Below are positions 2,821-35,002 of a stretch of 37,504 nucleotides of DNA, piece after piece. The stretch is from positions 1 through 37,504 of the forward strand of contig MHFG01000027.1 of NCBI GenBank assembly GCA_001804065.1, in the 5' to 3' direction. The stretch comes from Omnitrophica bacterium RIFCSPHIGHO2_02_FULL_46_20. GTDB lineage: Bacteria; Omnitrophota; Gorgyraeia; 2-01-FULL-45-10. A program made the position numbers and the translations under genes. The notes under the pieces were generated by a model that made no database searches, had not been told where the DNA came from, and saw nothing but the letters and a program-made list of their open reading frames with translations. How positions within the stretch are numbered: the stretch's first letter is position 1; each line of letters begins with the position of its first letter.

Positions 2821-4027
2821 TTTCCCCTACAAAATTCGGAACATATAGAATATGCGTTCCTTCTTTGCAATTTATATAGCGGTTAGCGCTTTCCTTTTCG
2901 ACAAAATTGACTTTGTTATAATCGAATGCGCCGTATTTTATTTCTTCTCTTATTCCAAAATATTTCAACAGATTTACCAGGCGCGTCCCGCCTCTATGTC
3001 TCCTTAATTGAGCAAAGACGGTCTTCTTCCGAACGATCTGCTGCCCAAATGGTCTATAATTAGAATCCGAAACGGTTGTTAATGTCTTCACGTTCGCAAA
3101 AACCCTGAAAAGTTCCCGGTCATCAATCTTCTTTTTAAGCCCTAACAGAGCTGCTAATTTATCTATAGACCCGTCCCAAGCGAATTTGGCGGCCGTGGCA
3201 AGGCCTTCCTTTCGAAAACGCTCACGCTTGCCCGCATCGTTCAAAAGCCCAATGATAGCTCCGGCTATGACATCGGGATTTTTCGGAGCCACCTTAAGGC
3301 AGTTGATTTCGTGAAAAGCATAATCATCTATCCCTTTTGAATCAGTAGTTATCAATGCTGCGCCGCATGCCATTGCTTCAAGACCGGGCAGTCCGAAGCC
3401 TTCATACCATGACGGGAAAATAAAGATATCGGCCATGGAATATTCGCACGCCACTTCGTCTTCATTAAGATTGTCTTTATAGATAAACCTCGCATGCCTG
3501 ACATGTTTTTTTACGATGCATTCCGCTTTCTTGACATCCTGAGCCCCTTTCCAGCCGCAACGATCGATCACAAAAATCCTTCCATCGCCCCTCTTTACGG
3601 GTCTGGGATAAAAAACAGACTTGTTGATACCATTCATGATAAGAAACGAATCAACGCCATAGTTGTCTTTTGTGTGCTTTTGTACATATCCGGACACCGA
3701 AATGAATTTTATAGGGAGCCGGAATATGCTTTCATCCAGATGTATGAAGCTCTGGATTAGATAGAATTTGTTTTTTGCCGGGGATTTCATCGCGTAATCG
3801 GCATCGTGGTCCCAGTGAAAAATGACAGCATCATCGGCCCGCATAAGCCCTGCGGCAGTATCCCTATCCAAAAAATAAGCATCAACCTTCATCCAGTTTG
3901 GCACATCATCGTCACAAACGATAAAGCATCTCTGAAACCTCTCAGCCAGGCGATTACAATGTTCAAAGACTATCTTGTTCCCGCCAAAAATCCTATTGTT
4001 CGAATTAATATAAAATAAATTGGCCAT
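2810..4027 (-). CDS. Glycosyltransferase family 4
   Basis: 405 aa; FPSWYEGFGLPGLEAMACGAALITTDSKGIDDYA motif. Confidence 0.85.
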   Translation of the reverse strand: MANLFYINSNNRIFGGNKIVFEHCNRLAERFQRCFIVCDDDVPNWMKVDAYFLDRDTAAGLMRADDAVIFHWDHDADYAMKSPAKNKFYLIQSFIHLDESIFRLPIKFISVSGYVQKHTKDNYGVDSFLIMNGINKSVFYPRPVKRGDGRIFVIDRCGWKGAQDVKKAECIVKKHVRHARFIYKDNLNEDEVACEYSMADIFIFPSWYEGFGLPGLEAMACGAALITTDSKGIDDYAFHEINCLKVAPKNPDVIAGAIIGLLNDAGKRERFRKEGLATAAKFAWDGSIDKLAALLGLKKKIDDRELFRVFANVKTLTTVSDSNYRPFGQQIVRKKTVFAQLRRHRGGTRLVNLLKYFGIREEIKYGAFDYNKVNFVEKESANRYINCKEGTHILYVPNFVGENDL

Positions 4028-4235
4028 TGCGGACTTTCCCTTATCTCGCGCTTAATATTTCAACGATTCCGTTCGACATCGACAACAAGCTCTTTCGCCT
4101 TCTCCTTTTTTAAACCTTTTATCTTCCCACACAATTCTGGCGATATAAAAGAGACTAGATAATATGCAAGCACCTTAAGACCAAAATATGTCTTATGCAT
4201 ATAATACCCTTTTCGCATGAACTGCAGGTAATACT
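4018..4235. repeat. Direct repeat copy 1 (3' end of GT2 gene plus 5' end of GT4 gene)
   Basis: aattggccattgcggactttcccttatctcgcgcttaatatttcaacgatt at ~4018-4068 recurs at ~5089-5139, with continuing imperfect similarity beyond. Confidence 0.9.
4060..4235 (-). pseudogene. 3' remnant of a GT2 glycosyltransferase gene, paralogous to the gene at 5123-6127
   Basis: Reverse complement translates as YLQFMRKGYYMHKTYFGLKVLAYYLVSFISPELCGKIKGLKKEKAKELVVDVERNR*, closely matching the C-terminus of 5123-6127 (RRGYAIDKRYFGVRVLIYYLFSFISPELCGKIKGLKKEKAKEFIVDVKSLKY*). An in-frame stop lies just upstream. Confidence 0.85.
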
Positions 4236-4275
4236 ATCAACAAAGGGCCATTTTATGCCGGAGATAGTCTATTTC

Positions 4276-4950
4276 TTAAGTAATATCATAAATAGTTTTA
4301 AGAAATTTATTATGCTCCATTAATCCACTAATAAATATAATCACTCCGACCATTTCAAAGGACTCCTCTAACATAGCTTCAACTCTACGTAAAATATCCA
4401 AATGATTAGAGCTAAGAAACCCCAATGTTGATTCTAAAACTATACTGCCAAAAAAATAGATAAGCGCGCCAATGATTAAGAGACGCGCCGCCTTTGTAGA
4501 GTCATTTAAATATTTTTTTATTTTTATGCCGATGCTCAAAACTATGATAACCGCCAGTGGGCCTATCATCAATAACCATGTATGGCTTCCCGGCCTGGAA
4601 AACTTAAATATATACTTGTTTATTAAAAAGCCTACCTGCTCATGAATAGTGGCAACTTCGTCACATGACATTACTAATAGCCACAATGACAATACCTGCC
4701 ATATCGTTTTGCCGTTCTGATGCGTCTTGGATAAAAACGAACAGCGATACGCAAAGAATGCGGCTATAAACAATAATATGCTTGAAAACCATGTTGGTAT
4801 ATTGGCCTCTGTATCCATATCGATCAGGCGAGTGATCGATTTGGATGGCTCACCAAGCAATATATTGATAATATTAGATGCTATTATAATAATAGCTATT
4901 AGGGTTAAGCATTGTATGCCGGAAATGTTTTTTTTCTTAAGTGAAGTCAT
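4276..4950 (-). CDS. Polytopic membrane protein of unknown function
   Basis: 224 aa with about 6 hydrophobic segments; ORF lies between the two copies of a ~200 bp direct repeat. Confidence 0.6.
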   Translation of the reverse strand: MTSLKKKNISGIQCLTLIAIIIIASNIINILLGEPSKSITRLIDMDTEANIPTWFSSILLFIAAFFAYRCSFLSKTHQNGKTIWQVLSLWLLVMSCDEVATIHEQVGFLINKYIFKFSRPGSHTWLLMIGPLAVIIVLSIGIKIKKYLNDSTKAARLLIIGALIYFFGSIVLESTLGFLSSNHLDILRRVEAMLEESFEMVGVIIFISGLMEHNKFLKTIYDIT

Positions 4951-5088
4951 GCGTCAGTTATACCTCTCTGAATCTTGAGAATAGTCATGTGATTAGCGTT
5001 TAGTATCACGCACTGACTGCCCGGTTAATTCATTAACATATGTTTTGAGTAACTTTATTATTTCTTCGTTTAGATTATACGATTTAGA

Positions 5089-5290
5089 AATTGGCCATTG
5101 CGGACTTTCCCTTATCTCGCGCTTAATATTTCAACGATTTAACATCGACAATAAACTCTTTTGCCTTCTCCTTTTTTAAACCTTTTATCTTCCCACACAA
5201 TTCTGGCGATATAAAAGAGAACAGGTAATAGATAAGGACTCTGACGCCAAAATATCTTTTGTCTATAGCATATCCTCTCCTAATGTATTC
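5089..5290. repeat. Direct repeat copy 2 (see 4018-4235); includes an orphan ATGGCCAATT start of the GT4 gene
   Basis: Same sequence as 4018-4068, then the homologous 3' end of the intact GT2 gene. Confidence 0.9.
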
Positions 5291-10724: not shown

Positions 10725-11953
10725 TGCAAATCCTGTGATTTCCCCAACGCTTTCTCAATGGCCCTACGCATGGATTCTACCCATACTTTACTGCTCAAGC
10801 GCTCCTCGAATACCTTTCTGGCGCTGGATCGCAAGGCATCGTATCTGACAGTATCTTCCCACAGTTCTTTTATGACTTTGCCGAAATCCGATCCCTTGGC
10901 GTTTAAATCTAACAAAAAACCATTCTGGCCGTCAAAAACAACTGAAGGTATACCGCCTGTATTAGTGGTGATAATGGGCAGGGCAAAAGCGGAGGCTTCA
11001 GCTAACGCCTGACCAAAACATTCTGCCCTGGTTGGCAAAATAAGAAAATGCGAAGACAGAAATACGTTTTGAAGCTTATGCCCGCCTTCTTCGGTATTTT
11101 TATCCAAAAATCCCATTACCTCAATGTGACTATTTCTAAGATATTGTCTTGGCGGAATGCATCCGCATATGAAAAGTTTTGCTCTGATACCTTCTCTATT
11201 TAACCAATCGACTGCATCGGCCGCGATATCTCCGCCTTTCCTTTCCCAATCAACACCCACAAACAGCAGTCCACATATATCATGTTCCTTTTTCTTCAAT
11301 ACATCGCTGACAGGTGGTATGACATCGAAATTAGGAGGACACGTGATCACTTCTATTTTATTGCCGCTTATCCCGTAATCGCGCATCATAGAATCAGCTG
11401 CCCATTGAGACACGGCTATGACAAGGGCTGCCTTCTCAAGCGCACTCTTCTCGACTATATTGCCGCCTTCAGAAAAATCTCTCGAAACCGGACTAAATTC
11501 AGGATAGTAGCCCTCCATCGCCTTGAACGTAGCATCGGTCTCATAGATAACCGGTATCTTCGTATCAAGGTAAGCTATGCAGAATGACCCCTTTTCGGCA
11601 AATATAATGTCATAGTGTTTACCCCTAAGCCTTTGTTCAATTATCTTGGCGTAATACCGCGATACGGCTATGGTCTTCTCCCACACGAACTTCTTCCCTC
11701 TCGCGTTCCAGCATATCTCTTTTAGTTTCTGCAGTAAATATATCCGCGTAAATTCTCTAAATAGGTTCCTCAGGATATAAGAAATGGTCATTTTATTCGG
11801 CCTGAAATTATGTATGTATTCCACCTCACCGCAGCATTCTTCGAGAAGGCGCGAGATGAGATAGGGCGTGCCTGACAAACTCTTCTTATCAAAGATGTCA
11901 TTGGAATTGACAAATGCTATCTTTAATCTGCTTGAAGTATCCCGTTTTGCCAT
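10721..11953 (-). CDS. Glycosyltransferase family 4
   Basis: LPTRAECFGQALAEASAFALPIITTNTGGIPSVVFDGQNGFLL motif. Confidence 0.88.
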   Translation of the reverse strand: MAKRDTSSRLKIAFVNSNDIFDKKSLSGTPYLISRLLEECCGEVEYIHNFRPNKMTISYILRNLFREFTRIYLLQKLKEICWNARGKKFVWEKTIAVSRYYAKIIEQRLRGKHYDIIFAEKGSFCIAYLDTKIPVIYETDATFKAMEGYYPEFSPVSRDFSEGGNIVEKSALEKAALVIAVSQWAADSMMRDYGISGNKIEVITCPPNFDVIPPVSDVLKKKEHDICGLLFVGVDWERKGGDIAADAVDWLNREGIRAKLFICGCIPPRQYLRNSHIEVMGFLDKNTEEGGHKLQNVFLSSHFLILPTRAECFGQALAEASAFALPIITTNTGGIPSVVFDGQNGFLLDLNAKGSDFGKVIKELWEDTVRYDALRSSARKVFEERLSSKVWVESMRRAIEKALGKSQDLQ

Positions 11954-11961
11954 ACTAAATC

Positions 11962-12150
11962 TTATGCTTCTCTATTGATTTTTCGGGTGATATAATTATC
12001 GATCTCATTAGCCGCAATACGATACCCGCCGCGGCGGCCTTCTTTGTAGGCAGCTATCTTCCTTCTTCTGATAAGCAGTCGAAGATATTCTTCGCTTACT
12101 CTTAAGATGCCGGCGGTTTCTTTTGTCAACAATAATTTTTTAGCCTCCAT
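11962..12150 (-). CDS. Small excisionase-type (MerR-like) helix-turn-helix protein; HTH repeat copy A (intact)
   Basis: MEAKKLLLTKETAGILRVSEEYLRLLIRRRKIAAYKEGRRGGYRIAANEIDNYITRKINREA*. The internal ATG at 12150 has a GAGGGAG Shine-Dalgarno-like sequence; the ORF-track start at 12192 is less likely. Confidence 0.75.
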   Translation of the reverse strand: MEAKKLLLTKETAGILRVSEEYLRLLIRRRKIAAYKEGRRGGYRIAANEIDNYITRKINREA

Positions 12151-12201
12151 CTGTACTCCCTCGCGTATAATTATTTTATTACTCTCTAACAAACTCGAAG
12201 A

Positions 12202-12690
12202 TTAGCGATTAGCGCTTTCTTCTATAAGATTACCTTCGTCGTCATATCTGCGCTTGATCTTTCTCTTTATTTTAGCGTTTATCGGAACATTTTTAGGAGC
12301 TCGTTGATAATCCTGAACTTCCTGCTCTTGATTCTTTTCCTGCCTCTGTTTCTGCTCCTCTTCCCTACGCTGCTGATCTGTGCTCATAAGCGCTCTGGCT
12401 AAGACTCCTGTGCCCGTTGCTCCCAGAATAGGGCCTTGTCCGATTTTGTCGGAAGCTTTTTTGGAGGTGATACCGATATCTATTGCGCGGGCATTTTCTT
12501 CGCCATCGTTTGGGATACTTCTGTAAGGGGTGCTATTATTTTTTCCAAAAATTCCGCCGCTTATGGTGTCGGTAGATGTAGAGCTCTCATTGCTTGAGTC
12601 GCTGTCATTCTCATAATCGTCTGCGCAGTATGCGCCAGGCGCAAACGCCAGTATCAATGCTATCGCTAGCGCGAGTGACAAAATCCTCAT
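12202..12690 (-). CDS. Secreted/periplasmic hypothetical protein
   Basis: Signal peptide MRILSLALAIALILAFAPGAYCAD; low-complexity S/T/Q-rich middle; C-terminus KIKRKIKRRYDDEGNLIEESANR. Confidence 0.6.
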   Translation of the reverse strand: MRILSLALAIALILAFAPGAYCADDYENDSDSSNESSTSTDTISGGIFGKNNSTPYRSIPNDGEENARAIDIGITSKKASDKIGQGPILGATGTGVLARALMSTDQQRREEEQKQRQEKNQEQEVQDYQRAPKNVPINAKIKRKIKRRYDDEGNLIEESANR

Positions 12691-12884
12691 TTATTTCCGC
12701 TCCATTTTGAAAAATAGTATTCTAAAGGATATAGACTTTGTGAAGATATGATCTTATTGAAAAAGAAGGCCTCGCCCTTATAGACTTTCTCAATAAAACC
12801 GTGCCCAAAGAATAGATATAATGCCAACGCTAATAGACTAAGTAAATAGTTGAGTTTTAAAAAGAGTTTCATCTTCATAATCAT
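12687..12884 (-). CDS. Small membrane-anchored hypothetical protein
   Basis: 65 aa with one hydrophobic segment; ATGA overlap with 12202-12690. Confidence 0.45.
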   Translation of the reverse strand: MIMKMKLFLKLNYLLSLLALALYLFFGHGFIEKVYKGEAFFFNKIISSQSLYPLEYYFSKWSGNK

Positions 12885-12904
12885 TTTGTAGCTATACGCG
12901 TTCT

Positions 12905-13085
12905 TTAGGGTATCTTCCCATATCGCCTTGCAATATAATTATCTATCTCATTAGCCGCAATCCGGTACCCGCTGCTGCGGCCTTCTTTGTAGGCGGCTAT
13001 CTTCTTCCTTCTCAAGAGCAGGCGCAGGTATTCTTCGCTCACTCTTAATATCTTGGCCGCTTCTTTGGTCAATAATAATTTTCCC
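12905..13085 (-). pseudogene. HTH repeat copy B: near full-length excisionase-like HTH without an ATG
   Basis: Reverse complement reads GKLLLTKEAAKILRVSEEYLRLLLRRKKIAAYKEGRSSGYRIAANEIDNYIARRYGKIP*; in-frame TAA upstream and no ATG (a TTG start is possible). Confidence 0.8.
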
Positions 13086-13123
13086 TGCCTATCTCTTTAT
13101 CCTGACTTTGTGACAGTGTGACT

Positions 13124-14143
13124 TTATTCTTTCAGTAAGTTAGTTATAATTTTAATCATAGTATCTTTTTCTCGTGGATCGCTTGCCGCAATGAGCAGAG
13201 AAAGAGCAACAATCGTGTTATCATTAATCTTGCGCTCGCCATTGGCTTTGTGTAAATATCTATTCTTTTCCAAGAAATAAATAAACATAATAGACGCAAT
13301 GCGTTTATTGCCATCTGAGAACGGGTGATCTTTGATAGTAAGATACAAAAGATGGGCTGCTTTCTCTTCCACGCTTGCGTATAAATCTTTTTTGTCAAAT
13401 GTTTGGTAAAGGGCCCCTATGATACTTTTAAACTTGTGGCTCATCTCCCTGCCAAACAAATCGCTGGACTCATCCTTTACAGCGAGCCTTGCTCTTATAT
13501 CATTTATCACTTTCACAGCCATATAATAGCCTAAAACAAATTTGGGTTTAGCTTTACTGGCTAGTAAAAGAGACTTATTATCATATTTATATAGAATGGT
13601 TAGCGCATTAGAGTATTCGTTAAGCAGCTTTAGAAGATCGTCTGCTTTGCCTGCCAGCTGGGGGTGCGAAGCATTAGTGCCGATAAATGCTATCGTCTTC
13701 CTAAGTTCGTTTAACGCAGTTTCGCGCTCGTGAAGTCTTTTTTGGTTAAGCGCATATCCTTTAAGGAGGTAACTCTTTAAAACGCTTGTCGCCCATATAC
13801 GAAACTGAGTTGCCCGTTTTGAGTTAACACGATAGCCTACAGATACAACGATATCCAGATTATAAAATTTTACGGGCTTGTCTGAAAAAGGAATGTGCAT
13901 TTTTTGCACATTGCATTTTCCATCTAATTCTCCTGTTTGAAAAATGTTATTTAGGTGCTTTGTAATAACACTTCTCTCGGTTAAAAAAAGCCTGGCAAGT
14001 TGTGCTTGAGTAAGCCAGACTGTTTCTTTTTCGAGCCTTACGTCCAGACGAACCGCGCCACTTTTCGCTTTGTAAATAATAATCTCGCCTTTTTCGGCAG
14101 CTATTCTTTCATTTTTTATATTCTTCATGACATCGTCTTCCAT
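13124..14143 (-). CDS. RhuM family protein with C-terminal Fic/Doc-like domain
   Basis: RhuM-like VSVGYRVNSKRATQFRIWATSVLKSYLLKGYALN; Fic motif HPFSDGNKR. Confidence 0.88.
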   Translation of the reverse strand: MEDDVMKNIKNERIAAEKGEIIIYKAKSGAVRLDVRLEKETVWLTQAQLARLFLTERSVITKHLNNIFQTGELDGKCNVQKMHIPFSDKPVKFYNLDIVVSVGYRVNSKRATQFRIWATSVLKSYLLKGYALNQKRLHERETALNELRKTIAFIGTNASHPQLAGKADDLLKLLNEYSNALTILYKYDNKSLLLASKAKPKFVLGYYMAVKVINDIRARLAVKDESSDLFGREMSHKFKSIIGALYQTFDKKDLYASVEEKAAHLLYLTIKDHPFSDGNKRIASIMFIYFLEKNRYLHKANGERKINDNTIVALSLLIAASDPREKDTMIKIITNLLKE

Positions 14144-14171
14144 GTTTTCCTCCTTTTTACTGATTTAGTGC

Positions 14172-14192
14172 CTTATATGTCTACTATATAAG
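14172..14192. promoter_or_regulatory. Inverted repeat CTTATAT-N7-ATATAAG upstream of rhuM/fic
   Basis: Perfect 7-bp arms (14172-14178, 14186-14192) just upstream of the start codon. Confidence 0.4.
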
Positions 14193-14290
14193 ACGTAAAA
14201 AGTGGGGAAATTGTTGCAAAATATTTTAATGCACACATATCTAGTAAAGAAATAGCGGGGGGATGTTTGTCTACAAGCATTCTCTATGTT

Positions 14291-14363
14291 TTATTCCACC
14301 CTATATCGCCGTCTGATATACTTATCTATTTCTTGCAAAGGAATCCGGTACCCGCCGCGGCGG
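14291..14363 (-). pseudogene. HTH repeat copy C: 3' fragment
   Basis: Reverse complement reads RRGGYRIPLQEIDKYIRRRYRVE*; homology starts at a CCGCCGCGGCGG palindrome. Confidence 0.8.
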
Positions 14364-14384
14364 ACATTTACCCCTGCAACGGCA

Positions 14385-15215
14385 TTACGATTTTAACATT
14401 CTGATCGGAAAGACTATCTCCCTATTCGCAAAAACCCTCTTTAACCCATATCGTTTGACGAGGATATTGGCCACATCTTTTGTTCCTGCCGAAGCCTCGC
14501 TGTCAAAATAGCCGCGTATCGCCCTAAAAGCATCCTTGACGTCTTTGTTGCTTTTATATTTCGATAATTCTTTCCGCACGGAAACCGGTCCATCTTTAAA
14601 ATTGACTATCGTGTACCATATATCATAAGCGTCCTTCGAGGCCCTGTTTTCTTCGTTCGAATAAGCGAAAGCCTTCAACGCCAAGAATGGTATTATATTC
14701 GGGATTTTAACCTGCGCTGTCTTCTTTCGTTCACGCTTGAGATCCCTTATAACAAAATCATCAAATACCAAATACACCCCGCGAAATTTAACGGCTTCCA
14801 CGTCGGGAGATATCTCTTTTATCTTATCGGAGACAGGTTCAAGCTTATCATCCGTTATCAAATCTATAACCACCGGTTTATAGCCGCCCTCATATTTGAT
14901 AAAACTATGGCTCATCACGCCCATTCCGTCCGCGGTCTTCTGTTTTTCAAACCCCAGAAACCGTAAAATCTTATAGAAGTCTTTATATCTTCCGCTTTGA
15001 GAAACCGCGAATTTTAGCGCGAGATCTATATCCAGCGTTCCCAAATACTCCCTCAGATACGGCAGTTTATTTTTGACCAATAAATCAGGCACAAGGCCGC
15101 CGACCAGATATAGGTCCCCCGATATTTTGCCAAACGCGGCATATATATCGGACAACATATATTTGAGTCTGTCCAGATGTTCCGGCGAATAATCCTCAAA
15201 CGCCTTTTCTCTCAT
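14385..15215 (-). CDS. AbiEii-like nucleotidyltransferase toxin
   Basis: LYLVGGLVPDLLVKNKLPYLREYLGTLDIDLAL: GG(x)nDxD nucleotidyltransferase motif; 4-bp overlap with the upstream AbiEi-like gene. Confidence 0.75.
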   Translation of the reverse strand: MREKAFEDYSPEHLDRLKYMLSDIYAAFGKISGDLYLVGGLVPDLLVKNKLPYLREYLGTLDIDLALKFAVSQSGRYKDFYKILRFLGFEKQKTADGMGVMSHSFIKYEGGYKPVVIDLITDDKLEPVSDKIKEISPDVEAVKFRGVYLVFDDFVIRDLKRERKKTAQVKIPNIIPFLALKAFAYSNEENRASKDAYDIWYTIVNFKDGPVSVRKELSKYKSNKDVKDAFRAIRGYFDSEASAGTKDVANILVKRYGLKRVFANREIVFPIRMLKS

Positions 15216-16267
15216 CTTGACTCTCTCTTAATAAGAGCCAGGATATGGCCGGCCTGTTTTTCTCCGCGCAAAGGGTTCTTTTTTAAGTCGGCGTAGAGCT
15301 GAAGGTTATCTACGACTTTTAAGCCGCCTTTGTCCTGTATTTTTGTAAATATATATTCATCCGGCGCTTCTATAACCGTAAGATTAAAGCCCTTATCGGC
15401 TTCGGCCGCCGACAACGATCTTTCTGGAAATTTATCGAGCGATTCTACATAGACCGAAACTATATCAAACGCAGCGAACGGCGCCACTAAAGAAGCTCCC
15501 GCTTCCTGCGTAAAGGCATATTTTATTCTATTATTGGAAAGTCTATCGGCTACAGAGGCCATCAATTTAGACGGATTTTGAGCCCATACATAATAGCTTG
15601 CCTTTCTTAAGCGCCGTTTTGTCTCCGCTTCTATCCAAGCGGAAAAGAGATCGTCAAACTCCGTTAAGGCCAGTTTTTCTTCTTTCTCCAACACGTATCC
15701 TGCCTCTATCATTTTACCTATGACGCGCGAAACCAGACCTTTGCTTAATCCTGTCCTTGCAGCGATATCTTTTTGTCTCCATTCCTCGCGAGGCTGGCTA
15801 AGGAATAATTTTGTAATCCTCGCGGATTTTGGTGAAAATATAGACTGATTTACAGGCGACGCCTGCCTTGGGCGCTCTTTCCCTTCCGTATAAATTAATA
15901 TGCCTTTATGCGTTATCTTCGCGTTTCCGCCAAAATCCATATACCCGACGTTGTTTTCGTCGCATATCCTCTTCCCGCCTTCGCCCATAAACGGAACGGC
16001 AACAATCGGATAATATGAGGGGTTGGACTTAGTGATTTTCTTTAGAATGGCGATACCGTCTCTGACATACTGCGGGTAGCCGGCTGTTTTAACTTCAACG
16101 CAAAAACAATAAGTATGACCGTCGCTGTCCCTGGTTTTTATCAATAGATCCGGCGCCGTGGCGCCCGTTTTCTTATTATGCCGTATATTCCAATGTGAAA
16201 GGAACGGCATGCGTTTTTTAAGCTCGCTTTCTATTTTCGTTATAAGGCGCTTTTCCGGTATATACAT
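15212..16267 (-). CDS. AbiEi-like antitoxin: N-terminal PD-(D/E)xK-like region plus winged HTH
   Basis: APDLLIKTRDSDGHTYCFCVEVKTAG; HTH region EWRQKDIAARTGLSKGLVSRVIGKMIEAGYVLEKEEKLALTE; operonic with 14385-15215. Confidence 0.65.
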   Translation of the reverse strand: MYIPEKRLITKIESELKKRMPFLSHWNIRHNKKTGATAPDLLIKTRDSDGHTYCFCVEVKTAGYPQYVRDGIAILKKITKSNPSYYPIVAVPFMGEGGKRICDENNVGYMDFGGNAKITHKGILIYTEGKERPRQASPVNQSIFSPKSARITKLFLSQPREEWRQKDIAARTGLSKGLVSRVIGKMIEAGYVLEKEEKLALTEFDDLFSAWIEAETKRRLRKASYYVWAQNPSKLMASVADRLSNNRIKYAFTQEAGASLVAPFAAFDIVSVYVESLDKFPERSLSAAEADKGFNLTVIEAPDEYIFTKIQDKGGLKVVDNLQLYADLKKNPLRGEKQAGHILALIKRESR

Positions 16268-16281
16268 GTATCTATCCTATA

Positions 16282-16319
16282 ATATATCATAGTTTACAAA
16301 TTGGTGAACTCTGATATAT
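16282..16319. promoter_or_regulatory. Operator-like inverted repeat in the abiEi/abiEii promoter
   Basis: Arms atatatcatagtttac (16282-16297) and gtgaactctgatatat (16304-16319): 16 bp with 2 mismatches and a 6-nt spacer, directly downstream of the -10. Confidence 0.6.
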
Positions 16320-16348
16320 AGTAAACCATATCTTTCCTTCTTTGTCAA
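16320..16348 (-). promoter_or_regulatory. Sigma70-like promoter TTGACA-N17-TTTACT
   Basis: -35 at 16343-16348 (inside the HTH repeat D tail), -10 at 16320-16325, spacer 17. Confidence 0.6.
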
Positions 16349-16449
16349 GGCATGTGTAGTCTATTTTCGTTGTGCCTGCAGGAAATATAATTATCTATCT
16401 CATCAGCCGCTATACGGTAGCCGCTGCGGCGGCCTTCTTTGTAGGCGGC
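16345..16449 (-). pseudogene. HTH repeat copy D: 3' fragment
   Basis: Reverse complement reads AAYKEGRRSGYRIAADEIDNYISCRHNENRLHMP*; 78 bp (16360-16437) identical to copy E. Confidence 0.85.
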
Positions 16450-16499
16450 AAACAATAACGCTGCTCTGACGCTATACTAATCACAGAGGCCGCCGGCAA

Positions 16500-17168
16500 T
16501 CATTCCAGCAGTTTCTGAGACAAACGATGCATTTCCGGATTGGCTAAAGCCAGAACTTTCTTTTTTACCGCTCTTGAAAAATATTCTTTTTCAGTTTTGG
16601 TTAATTTCTCCCGCTTGAGCTTCTTCAGAAACAACTCTTTCTGTTTAGGAGAAAAAACTTGTGACAATGAATACTCAAGGCTCAGTTCGTCTTTTACAGA
16701 AAGCAATTCGTTCAATTTTGCCTGCGATTGGTTAAAATAATTGTTAAATACGGATTTTAGCCTATGGGCGGACATTTCGCGCCCGGCAACATTGAGATTT
16801 CCATCTTTCTTAAGATTCCTCAGGTATCCGTCAAATTGTTTTTGCATGTTTCTTGAAAGGGCTTTGAAAAGCTCCTTGTGCCAAGAAAATTTTAAATTAA
16901 AGAATTTATAAAGCGCGAGCGACATTGCCACAAGTGAAACCAGAGACGATTTTTGAAAAGCCTTTTTGAGGTACCGATTAACTTTGGCGTAACTGAATGA
17001 CCCGTTCTGCGCGCTATTTGCCAACACCACAGGAAACCCTTCCCAAAGACGAAGTTCTCCCGATCTTACCATATCCGACAAGGTTAAATCCGCGTTTTGG
17101 TATTCCTCAGCGCCAAAAAGCGGGAATCCTAACGCGCCGACTCTTTTTAGAAGGTTATTATTTTTCAT
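16500..17168 (-). CDS. Hypothetical protein, partner of the adjacent nucleotidyltransferase (candidate TA partner)
   Basis: 222 aa, basic and helical-looking; translated after 17227-17808 in the same unit; no family recognised. Confidence 0.5.
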   Translation of the reverse strand: MKNNNLLKRVGALGFPLFGAEEYQNADLTLSDMVRSGELRLWEGFPVVLANSAQNGSFSYAKVNRYLKKAFQKSSLVSLVAMSLALYKFFNLKFSWHKELFKALSRNMQKQFDGYLRNLKKDGNLNVAGREMSAHRLKSVFNNYFNQSQAKLNELLSVKDELSLEYSLSQVFSPKQKELFLKKLKREKLTKTEKEYFSRAVKKKVLALANPEMHRLSQKLLE

Positions 17169-17226
17169 GTGCCAACTCCCTTATAATCGCACACGGAGCC
17201 TCTCGTGAGTGCAATGCGAGGTTTCA

Positions 17227-17808
17227 TTAAGCGGCCCCTTTTTTCTCGAGGCCTTTTAAAAAATGCTCAAAATTCCTACTTACTCTATCTTCTGAAACGT
17301 CAAAAGATGCTGTTTCTTTGAAACGCTGCTCCAATCGCTTTAAGTCTATGTATTTTCTCTTACTTTTCGCCAGCATAAGGCAATCATCCATATCTACATT
17401 ACTAGCCCTGAATAGCTTGCTTATAATGATATCATAATAATTCAACACCCCCAGGTAGATCCTGTCAAACTCTTTTACAGTAATATTATTCCCTTTCTCC
17501 AGAGGCGATTCTAACAACTCTGTAGTATGTATGGCTTTACCCCTGAATAAATCAAATATAAAACCATCGCCTCTTTTCCATCCCCAGCCGCTCGCTGATC
17601 TATATCCAAGCTGTTTTAATACGCTTGTAAGATAATCATACTCTCCTGTGTCCGGCACAATCAGATCAACGTCTTTTGTGGACTCCTTTACGCCTAAAAG
17701 AGTGAGAGCGGTTCCTCCGCAGGCGATTAAATGGACCTTGCGCTTGAGAAAACCGTCCCATGCGCTGATTGTGTTCAACAACCCTTCTTTATCTATACGG
17801 TATTCCAT
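17227..17808 (-). CDS. Nucleotidyltransferase (DUF6036/MNT-like), candidate TA component
   Basis: LIACGGTALTLLGVKESTKDVDLIVPD: GG(x)nDxD motif. Confidence 0.75.
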   Translation of the reverse strand: MEYRIDKEGLLNTISAWDGFLKRKVHLIACGGTALTLLGVKESTKDVDLIVPDTGEYDYLTSVLKQLGYRSASGWGWKRGDGFIFDLFRGKAIHTTELLESPLEKGNNITVKEFDRIYLGVLNYYDIIISKLFRASNVDMDDCLMLAKSKRKYIDLKRLEQRFKETASFDVSEDRVSRNFEHFLKGLEKKGAA

Positions 17809-17816
17809 ACAATACT

Positions 17817-17834
17817 TTGTATATATTTATACAA
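17817..17834. promoter_or_regulatory. Inverted repeat TTGTATA-N4-TATACAA between the promoter and start of 17227-17808
   Basis: Perfect 7-bp arms; further TTGTATA/TATACAA-like words nearby. Confidence 0.45.
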
Positions 17835-17847
17835 TTCTATGTATTAA

Positions 17848-17876
17848 AGTATACAATATATTTAGCTATTTGTCAA
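17848..17876 (-). promoter_or_regulatory. Sigma70-like promoter TTGACA-N17-TATACT
   Basis: -35 at 17871-17876 (HTH repeat E tail), -10 at 17848-17853, spacer 17. Confidence 0.7.
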
Positions 17877-17965
17877 GACCTGCGCGATCTATTTTCGTTG
17901 TGCCTGCAGGAAATATAATTATCTATCTCATCAGCCGCTATACGGTAGCCGCTGCGGCGGCCTTC
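17873..17965 (-). pseudogene. HTH repeat copy E: 3' fragment
   Basis: Reverse complement reads EGRRSGYRIAADEIDNYISCRHNENRSRRS*; 78 bp (17888-17965) identical to copy D. Confidence 0.85.
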
Positions 17966-18044
17966 GATTAAAAAAAATATGTCAACTTACTTTTTATGAT
18001 TTAACAGAATTGAATTGTGTTTTAAGCAGTATTCGGACATTGCA

Positions 18045-19214
18045 TTAACAAAGAGAACCAATTTCTGCAACAGGTATAGCCATTACCCCAGGTGAGAGGG
18101 TGCGGAATTCCTTCTTTACGCCTTTTGGCGGATTAAGGTGGACGACATATTTCTCAACTTTATATCCGGGTATCGCACGCGCCAATTTCATTAAAGATAT
18201 TCCCATTGACGGCTTAACAGAACGCACCGCTTTGGCTTCCATAACAAGGAGCCTGGCGTTACCGGAGAATGGTATTATAAAATCTACTTCCAAGCCCTGC
18301 TGGTCGCGGAAATAATAAATATGCCTGCGCTTACCGCTATTTTCCTGATGTTTGACTATTTCAGAGGCGGCGAATCCTTCAAATATTTGCCCAAAAAAAG
18401 GCGATTTACGCAGCGCATCTTCTGTTTCAATACCTAAGAGATAACAGGATAATCCTGAGTCCGCAAAATAAATCTTAGGGGATTTGATAAGGCGTTTGCC
18501 GAAATTCTCATAAAATGGCGGGACAACAATAATCTGTCCTGTAATCTCAAGAATATTAATCCATTCTGTTAATGCCGGCACAGAAATACCAAGCGGAGCC
18601 GCAAGATCAGTTTTATTAAGCACCGCGCCTTGGCGGCTTCCAATTAGCGAAAGAAACCTTCGAAATGTCGCCAAGTTCTTAATTGCGCTTATAGAACGCA
18701 CATCGCGCTCAAGATATGTCTGGATATACGAACGAAACCATAAAGAGGCTGTCTTTGGCTTTGCCAAAACTTCAGGCAAGCCGCCGCGGAGTATTGAGAC
18801 TTTCTTTGACTCCTCGGAAGAGAGCCCCAACAGATGGAATACAGCGACTCTTCCAGCCATCGATTCTGATACCCCTTTCATTAATGGGGCATCCTGTGAA
18901 CCGGTAAAATACCATTGCCCATAACGGCGCGGTTTTTCATCCATACGCGTACGAAAATAATTAAAAAGTTCCGGGATATTCTGAATCTCATCCAGGATGG
19001 CAGGCGGCTTAACCTCTTCAATAAAGGATCGCGGATCCGCTTTTATGCGCGCGATTGTATCAAGGTCTTCCAAAAGGTAATAAGACGCCTTTGGAAACAA
19101 TTTCTTAAGGAGCGTAGTCTTGCCTGCCCTGCGCGGTCCTGTTAAAAGAATAGCCGCAAATGCATGAGAGGCTTCTACAATTTGTTTTTCTATCAAACGG
19201 TTTATATAACGCAT
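18045..19214 (-). CDS. AAA ATPase, DUF4143-type ATP-binding protein
   Basis: Walker A LLTGPRRAGKTTLLKKLF; PPAILDEIQNIPELFNYFR; C-terminal nuclease-like FRDQQGLEVDFIIPF...LLVMEAKAV. Confidence 0.88.
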   Translation of the reverse strand: MRYINRLIEKQIVEASHAFAAILLTGPRRAGKTTLLKKLFPKASYYLLEDLDTIARIKADPRSFIEEVKPPAILDEIQNIPELFNYFRTRMDEKPRRYGQWYFTGSQDAPLMKGVSESMAGRVAVFHLLGLSSEESKKVSILRGGLPEVLAKPKTASLWFRSYIQTYLERDVRSISAIKNLATFRRFLSLIGSRQGAVLNKTDLAAPLGISVPALTEWINILEITGQIIVVPPFYENFGKRLIKSPKIYFADSGLSCYLLGIETEDALRKSPFFGQIFEGFAASEIVKHQENSGKRRHIYYFRDQQGLEVDFIIPFSGNARLLVMEAKAVRSVKPSMGISLMKLARAIPGYKVEKYVVHLNPPKGVKKEFRTLSPGVMAIPVAEIGSLC

Positions 19215-19338
19215 ATATGAGGATTATAAGCTATCACCTTAGAAAACTCAAGCTTTTTTAGATGACAAGAAAAACAGTTTTTCAACGCTCTCATCGCCAT
19301 GCACTTAACCGCTTGCTTTAACTGGTATTCTAATAAGT

Positions 19339-19557
19339 TCATTGTCTGACCTTTCCGGCGATGGAATGTTTGCGGATAAGCGACCTGACCTTTACCGGGT
19401 CAAGAGAAAAATAGTATTTTTTATCCAGTATCTTTTGGCTAAATTGATACATATCAAGAAATATCCCGAGCGATTTTTTTTCGCTCATCCGTCGCAATGA
19501 TTTTTCTTTATATCGGGATTCAAATTTCCTGATCTTATCCCACTGGTGATTATTCAT
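19339..19557 (-). CDS. Small hypothetical protein
   Basis: 72 aa ORF between HTH fragment F and the DUF4143 ATPase. Confidence 0.4.
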   Translation of the reverse strand: MNNHQWDKIRKFESRYKEKSLRRMSEKKSLGIFLDMYQFSQKILDKKYYFSLDPVKVRSLIRKHSIAGKVRQ

Positions 19558-19585
19558 ATATCGCCTACTTTATCGTCCAGATATC

Positions 19586-19640
19586 TCACCGACAAGGTCT
19601 CGAGATATAATTGCCGATCCCATCAGCCGCTCTTCCCGCC
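19586..19640 (-). pseudogene. HTH repeat copy F: degenerate 3' fragment
   Basis: Reverse complement contains ADGIGNYISRPCR*, resembling ADEIDNYIS of copies D/E; nucleotides gagatataattgccgatcccatcagccgct align to the other copies. Confidence 0.55.
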
Positions 19641-19686
19641 TCAAGGGGGCCATCCCCTACAAACTACGCCCCCCTATGAGCCTTCT

Positions 19687-20430
19687 CTACACCCTCCGTA
19701 TTGTCCAAAAGTCATCGGCGAGTTCTTCGAGATATTGGAATGGGATGGTGAAATACCCGCTCATCCCCCATGACTTACCCCATGAATTGCGGATGATAAA
19801 CCGTTTCGCCTTCTGAATGTATCCGACAGCCATAACCGCATGGCCGCCTGTCACAGATTCTCCCTTGCGCGGCATATGAGCGATGCCTGTCTTAGCTACG
19901 GCCGGAGATTCGAAACTCTCATATACGGTAAATCCGAAGACAAAAGGGTAGCCTTCGGCAAGGCACACAAGCATATCGCGAAGCGTCTCTATGCGATGAT
20001 ACGACTCTATCCTGCGCTTTCTCGCCTCTGCATAACACCTCTTTGCCGGCCTCTTGTCAAAACGCGCTGTCAGGTATGGCCATAGAGCTTCCAGGCATAC
20101 GCCGTCCGCTTTAAGCGTCTTTATGCCGTCTCTTAGCGACGCGCCTGAATCGTAATCTACCGTATCTATCAGGACGCGTTCGTTGTAGTAGATAAAAAGC
20201 CTGCTTACATCCGTATATTTCGAATCCGGCATATTGTCGAGAAATTCGATATTACCGGCTAATGCCTGCGCCGTGCAGCTTCCCAAACTCCCCTGGTCCT
20301 CAACTCCGGAACATAGCTGCCTCAAATCTACCTTATCAGGCAGCCTTACGACAGGTTTTATTGCCGTATAAAGGTAATCCCTCTGGTCCGGCAAGTCAGG
20401 CACCCAGCCGTATGCGCGCTGTTGATACAT
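19687..20430 (-). CDS. Papain-like (C1A) cysteine peptidase
   Basis: EDQGSLGSCTAQALAGNIEF (Q...C), GGHAVMAVGY (H), RNSWGKSWG (N). Start revised to 20430, which has AAAGGAGGATCAATG; the ORF-track start at 20448 lies inside HTH fragment G. Confidence 0.85.
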   Translation of the reverse strand: MYQQRAYGWVPDLPDQRDYLYTAIKPVVRLPDKVDLRQLCSGVEDQGSLGSCTAQALAGNIEFLDNMPDSKYTDVSRLFIYYNERVLIDTVDYDSGASLRDGIKTLKADGVCLEALWPYLTARFDKRPAKRCYAEARKRRIESYHRIETLRDMLVCLAEGYPFVFGFTVYESFESPAVAKTGIAHMPRKGESVTGGHAVMAVGYIQKAKRFIIRNSWGKSWGMSGYFTIPFQYLEELADDFWTIRRV

Positions 20431-21998: not shown

Positions 21999-22028
21999 GG
22001 GGGTCAGGTCCCAAAGGGACAGGTCCCT
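21999..22028. repeat. GGGGTCAGGTCCCAAAGGGACAGGTCCC dispersed repeat, copy 1
   Basis: Inverted-orientation near-identical copy at 34975-35002. Confidence 0.8.
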
Positions 22029-22094
22029 ATTTTATTCTTATTCTTCCGGTATCATAGCGTCAGGCATGATCGACAGGATCAACGAAGATCGGAA

Positions 22095-34946: not shown

Positions 34947-34974
34947 TCTCCTACTCGTTACCCTGCCTTTAATT

Positions 34975-35002
34975 GAGACCTGTCCCCTTGGGACCTGACC
35001 CC
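34975..35002. repeat. GGGGTCAGGTCCC dispersed repeat, copy 2 (inverted relative to 21999-22028)
   Basis: gagacctgtccccttgggacctgacccca; nearly the reverse complement of copy 1. Confidence 0.8.

Follow-up and report, generated by a model that had tools for sequence, protein, structure and literature searches.

How did a two-gene unit come to lie between two identical stretches of DNA, and could the same repeats serve to remove it again? This question is raised by a 37,504-nucleotide stretch of Omnitrophota DNA, hereafter called the window, in which a nucleotidyltransferase (NTase) gene and a partner gene are bracketed by long direct repeats.

The flanking repeats within a chain of HTH_17 relics

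Ungapped comparison at an offset of 1528 revealed that copy D (16360-16437, minus strand) and copy E (17888-17965, minus strand) agree over exactly 78 bp, with a mismatch at each edge. The repeat scored 85 against a best of 12 in shuffled sequences, far above chance. The identity had originally been read by eye, and realignment upheld it (78/78), together with the statement that the remaining copies of the array are diverged: D and E form its sole identical pair.

Read on the minus strand, every copy corresponds to the 3′ part of one small HTH_17 (excisionase-like helix-turn-helix) gene, and the frame of D and E aligns with the full-length HTH copies, as expected from the original prediction that the repeats are HTH fragments. 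Copy A (11962-12192, minus strand) is a full-length gene, listed at 76 aa, that exceeds the curated cut-off of PF12728 (34.4 bits versus 27). Copy B (12917-13082, minus strand) is a nearly complete HTH_17 open reading frame in which no ATG was seen. Copy C (14300-14363, minus strand), a diverged 3′ relic, separates the AbiEii-like gene from the RhuM-Fic gene. Copies D and E are 3′ fragments of the HTH_17 gene; E (EGRRSGYRIAADEIDNYISCRHNENR) is in frame with A and B, and D is the same relic with homology about 13 bp longer, to approximately 16450 (AAYKEGRRSGYRI). About the first 26-31 HTH codons are missing from C, D and E, and D and E, having no start codon, are presumably non-coding relics. 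Identity to D is 58/65 for A, 61/66 for B, 35/48 for C and 25/30 for F, and against the repeat-search reference the other copies reach 72-75% identity over 64 bp. Copy F (19602-19631, minus strand), a sixth and decayed relic upstream of the AAA-DUF4143 module that was absent from the original prediction, carries the alternation of relics and modules past the array as first described.

Within one 7.7-kb stretch, at least six HTH copies of unequal decay share a single orientation, and each TA-like (toxin-antitoxin-like) or defence-like module in the row is preceded by one of them. F precedes the AAA-DUF4143 ATPase (18045-19214, minus strand; PADLOC candidate PDC-S01), E precedes the NTase and its 222-aa partner, and D precedes a winged-HTH protein of 351 aa with an AbiEii-like protein of 276 aa (14385-16267, minus strand), whose own promoter lies just beyond D. 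C is followed by the RhuM-Fic protein (13124-14143, minus strand; PADLOC candidate PDC-S23), B by two small open reading frames, and A adjoins a cluster of glycosyltransferase genes. Comparison with the rest of the genome and with 16 other genomes of the class confined the relic chain to this contig. The HTH gene is single-copy in those 16 genomes and likewise in 16 named contigs, almost all of which carry the label Candidatus Omnitrophota; where its context is readable, it often lies in a polysaccharide cluster, beside chain-length, ligase, flippase or epimerase genes.

The two identical copies differ in how far they extend. On the 5′ side, the HTH homology of D exceeds that of E by 12-13 bp (GCCGCCTACAAA), and this extra sequence lies on the inner, insert side; with such unequal 5′ ends, D and E are not a simple clean duplication. 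Beyond the opposite edge, both copies run in the same register into TTGACAAA, which contains the -35 element and is part of each adjoining module's own native promoter. Similarity between D and E past the 78 bp is weak, with mismatches that are mostly transitions. The earlier view of the D/E pair as the youngest event in the array is likely but unproven, because gene conversion could also have produced the identity.

The NTase-partner module

The unit between the repeats is a patchily spread, toxin-antitoxin-like module with its own promoter and operator, and both of its genes lie where they had been predicted. The NTase (17227-17808, minus strand, 193 aa) contains CGGT and DxD motifs. Its sole match is DUF6036 (PF19502, E = 2.2e-8, above cut-off), and neither Pfam nor PADLOC returned an AbiEii match. 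Among 27 homologues, C30, G31, G32 and T33 of the CGGT motif and D46 and D48 of TKDxD are invariant, as are K131, R134, D139 and D142, which might correspond to the C-terminal motifs III/IV, with K, R and D, of MenAT/AbiE NTases. The predicted structure (AF2, pLDDT 92) has the MenT1/ANT fold; its nearest PDB folds in Foldseek are ANT(2'')-Ia (1.6e-5), TM1012 and MenT1 (4.1e-4). A PDB search by sequence gave no significant match for the NTase or the partner.

The partner (16500-17168, minus strand, 222 aa) is family-less: it has no match above cut-off in Pfam and none in PADLOC, NCBIfam or the PDB, whether by sequence or by fold. Its model is all-helical except for one hairpin (pLDDT 79), and its most conserved part is the C-terminal third.

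Upstream of the NTase, the promoter/operator region (17809-17881, minus strand) consists of CTTGACA and TATACT separated by 17 bases, followed by alternating TTGTAT and ATACAA half sites that continue into the ATG. These half sites are spaced about one helix turn apart and end in the start codon, a layout that suggests cooperative autoregulation. Some 25 Omnitrophota loci with otherwise unrelated flanks share this conserved region. Together, the 222-aa partner and its conserved iterated operator represent a candidate new antitoxin family. Across 17801-17881, the iterated operator overlaps the NTase start codon, and no obvious Shine-Dalgarno sequence is present.

Homology to other genomes reaches from the -35 box (about 17880) to the partner stop codon (16500) and no further, which gives the module clean borders. 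A sample of 384 genomes of the phylum contained the partner in 66 (17% of sampled Omnitrophota), in a patchy distribution; it is up to 78% identical across different families, usually with the NTase directly upstream. The proposal of a separable unit is therefore well founded, given this patchiness, the unrelated neighbours elsewhere and a homology that ends just inside the repeats.

The two genes decay unequally. Large in-frame deletions affect the NTase at L022 and L104, the gene is cut to 27 codons at L107 and frameshifted at L101, and only remnants survive at L110 and L120; at all six loci the partner is full length. Two further loci (L020, L075) likewise combine a broken NTase with a retained partner, and in most of the NTase-damaged loci the operator is also kept. 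Conversely, all eight other near-full-length NTases found among 57 relatives, in a search not selected for the partner, have a full-length partner. Loss of the NTase with retention of an intact partner is the asymmetry that a toxin and its antitoxin would show, and we refer to the NTase as the presumed toxin and to the partner as the presumed antitoxin or regulator. The deletions at L022 and L104 are independent, and both resume at residue 154, fusing the C-terminal helices to a short N-terminus; the truncated NTase might act as a regulator at these loci.

Among characterized systems, the closest comparison is with NTase toxin-antitoxin pairs of the MenAT/AbiE type, represented by MenT1 with MenA1 (PDB 8an5; PMC10435456). 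Like them, the module combines an NTase of polymerase-beta-type fold, bearing DxD, with a dedicated partner in an operon of two genes, and its decay is asymmetric in the way expected for toxin and antitoxin. It differs in that its NTase belongs to DUF6036 rather than AbiEii/DUF1814, in that the NTase gene comes first, and in its all-helical 222-aa partner, which in our searches matched neither AbiEi/COG5340 nor MenA1-like or other known antitoxins. The TA-like module probably works like NTase-type toxin-antitoxin systems, yet by two tested features, toxin family and antitoxin type, it is not an AbiE/MenAT member.

Direct repeats around modules in other genomes

We surveyed 51 module loci, the window locus included, by taking the best local direct alignment between the 300 bases upstream of the promoter and the 300 bases after the partner, and counted Smith-Waterman scores of at least 18. 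Flanking direct repeats were found at 8 of the 51 loci and inverted repeats at 1 of 51, whereas the controls gave 3 of 978 random same-length placements on the same contigs and 5 of 422 gene-bounded units. The threshold was picked after the score distribution had been seen, and the counted loci include some in which the repeats had first come to notice, so the p-values are only indicative: 9e-6 for 8/51 versus 5/422 (Fisher), 5e-5 without the window locus, and 0.008 when three REP-like or palindromic cases are removed as well. Three of the top four control matches look TA- or defence-like.

The repeats are 20-205 bp long and unrelated between genomes, and the clearest of them derive from the ends of adjacent genes. 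Their gene readings rest on inspection of translations unless a Pfam match is given. At L093, the repeat consists of the last 12 codons and the terminator of an intact upstream gene (69/70). At L094, the module spans the -35 to the stop codon and has the beginning of the gene that follows (MNNTYAVI) on either side, with almost nothing extra between the repeats. L105 carries 205 bp of an integrase 3′ end, in which relic and intact gene differ by 19 synonymous and 7 non-synonymous codons; this synonymous excess indicates that the relic diverged while still coding. A diverged GT9 3′ end at L098 is recognizable at the protein level and lies below the threshold. At L095 (20/20), L082 and L023, the repeats are of a REP-like or palindromic kind that may be generic. 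Similar modules between repeated ends of unrelated neighbour genes suggest insertion by recombination at gene ends. The remaining 43 of 51 loci have no detectable repeat, which points to decaying scars or to further routes.

A second unit of like anatomy occurs in the window itself, at 4017-5285. Here the 3′ end of an upstream glycosyltransferase gene lies on one side of a 224-aa membrane-protein-like open reading frame (4276-4950), and a relic of the same gene on the other. The repeat is identical over 52 bp around the stop codon and beyond, while part of its coding portion represents a different allele, which makes it a mosaic.

AAA-DUF4143 modules have direct repeats at 4 of 30 loci and the housekeeping PAC2 control at 0 of 29 (p = 0.06 versus PAC2; p = 0.002 versus the 422 units). 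One of the AAA-DUF4143 repeats, 53 bp long, reads as the 3′ end of maf, and another, of 24 bp, resembles a tRNA 3′ end. No strong repeats surround wHTH-AbiEii modules outside the window. RhuM-Fic modules were considered as support but not counted: their direct repeats (4 of 19) apparently contain the module's own promoter. At L135, L138, L141 and L142, a second promoter-like copy (44-54 bp, direct) follows the RhuM-Fic genes, and such copies are perhaps remnants of tandem modules.

As originally interpreted, the repeats could support recombination that would excise the unit. That interpretation is partly supported; flanking repeats recur around the module in other genomes, and no genome of the same genus, and hence no empty site, was found. 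For an empty site at L093, 38 relatives were searched, and none has a homologue of the host gene.

Proposed routes of insertion and their alternatives

We give an even chance to the reading that the TA-like module was inserted into the HTH_17 relic chain by recombination at the relic 3′ end, leaving a relic on each side. At the outset there would be a DNA molecule in which the module is linked to an HTH_17 gene at its 3′ end. The incoming 3′ end would then recombine with a resident HTH relic. This could be a single crossover of the RecA type, or homology might act on one side only, the second join being illegitimate; the product would be a relic-module-relic array with identical cores. A reverse crossover could delete the module, and excision through D and E is plausible. 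Against this reading stand the missing empty site, the 43 loci with no detectable repeat, the REP-like or palindromic repeats that may be generic, and the 12-13 HTH bases on the inner side of D, absent from E, which call for one or more additional steps. We infer the direction and chemistry of this event.

Homology-facilitated illegitimate recombination, known from transformation experiments, joins foreign DNA through gene homology on one side and an illegitimate join on the other. Gene-end repeats would result from such a process, which at this locus is inferred from the anatomy only. The literature searched contained no account of it.

The strongest alternative, which we regard as unlikely, starts from a long staggered break in the HTH relic: the module would be joined to the broken ends, fill-in would duplicate about 78-90 bp of target, and donor and target would need no homology. 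Restriction-modification genes in Helicobacter offer a precedent of the same anatomy, termed insertion with long target duplication (Nobusato et al. 2000, cited in PMC1643837 and PMC3031569). The likeness extends to a small addiction-type unit, to long and variable direct repeats of target DNA, and to the absence of a transposase, none being in sight at the module. The genes here differ in being TA-like (an NTase with a family-less partner) rather than restriction-modification genes, and several of the repeats look like recombined alleles; the flanking repeats are in this sense a variant of a known insertion pattern. The very high identity in the cleanest cases (78/78 in the window, 69/70 at L093, 20/20 at L095) fits a duplicated target well, as does the L094 module, held tightly between two target copies. 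Against it, the repeats of L105 and L098 and those of the unit at 4.0-5.3 kb show allele-like divergence or are mosaics, and neither donor nor empty site has been found. In addition, D has 12-13 bp of HTH sequence on the insert side where E has none, an outcome for which a 78-bp target duplication would require later trimming. The L105 divergence, the mosaic at 4276-4950 and the extra bases of D together favour recombination between alleles over plain target duplication: a crossover between a resident relic and a molecule bearing the module and a longer relic accounts for all three.

A tandem HTH family broken up by many insertions and deletions, with D and E homogenized by recent gene conversion and the module never arriving as a unit, appears improbable. 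The presence of at least six co-oriented copies in differing decay within 7.7 kb is compatible with such a history, and so is the weak, mostly transitional D/E similarity that continues past the 78 bp with TTGACAAA in register. That sequence, however, is native to each adjoining module's promoter, and the sharp module boundaries and the unrelated flanking repeats in other genomes also speak against this history.

Integron gene cassettes are known to carry TA operons (reviewed in PMC2654758), and the row resembles them in its promoter-bearing TA-like modules, related intervening repeats and single orientation. It is nevertheless very unlikely that a recombinase works in trans on the HTH fragments as specific sites of such an integron-like array of cassettes, a possibility already disfavoured, despite the regular relic-module-relic-module order. 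The repeats are gene relics found at this locus only, and they do not look like recombination sites, being without structure, nearby integrase or recurrence around the pair elsewhere. DNA folding of the copies was unremarkable (z from +0.6 to -1.4), with no strong fold on either strand and no folded attC-like site, and the idea of a structured site was rejected. No integrase, integron-type or other, occurs in the window, and the whole genome has only two tyrosine recombinases, of Xer-like length (291-319 aa). A role for the HTH sequence as a module-specific site was likewise rejected, since no HTH sequence lies near the module in the other genomes examined. A search for RNA families across 11900-20000 returned none.

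Joining of the copies by metagenome mis-assembly is very improbable: the genome is a draft of 92 contigs, but 78 bp is shorter than a typical read, both junctions enter intact promoters and complete genes, and the gene order within the module is that of other genomes.

Insertion by recombination at the relic 3′ end concerns the D/E unit; the whole HTH chain on either side of it is not accounted for by any single mechanism. As a wider and tentative extension, which we consider possible if doubtful, TA-like modules of the Omnitrophota may be recombinase-free cassettes, promoter-to-stop units that insert at arbitrary gene ends and leave direct repeats for re-loss. If this is true, gene-end repeats would be both integration scar and exit door. 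For the question of how small toxin-antitoxin operons move between chromosomes in the absence of transposases, a measurable phylum-wide excess of gene-end direct repeats, with housekeeping genes as a natural control, offers a testable signature.

Elsewhere in the window, 22000-22031 and 34971-35002 form an inverted pair of GGGGTCAGGTCCC/GGGACAGGTCCC-type repeats, which resemble in type the REP-like GGGACTGTCCC repeats of several other loci.
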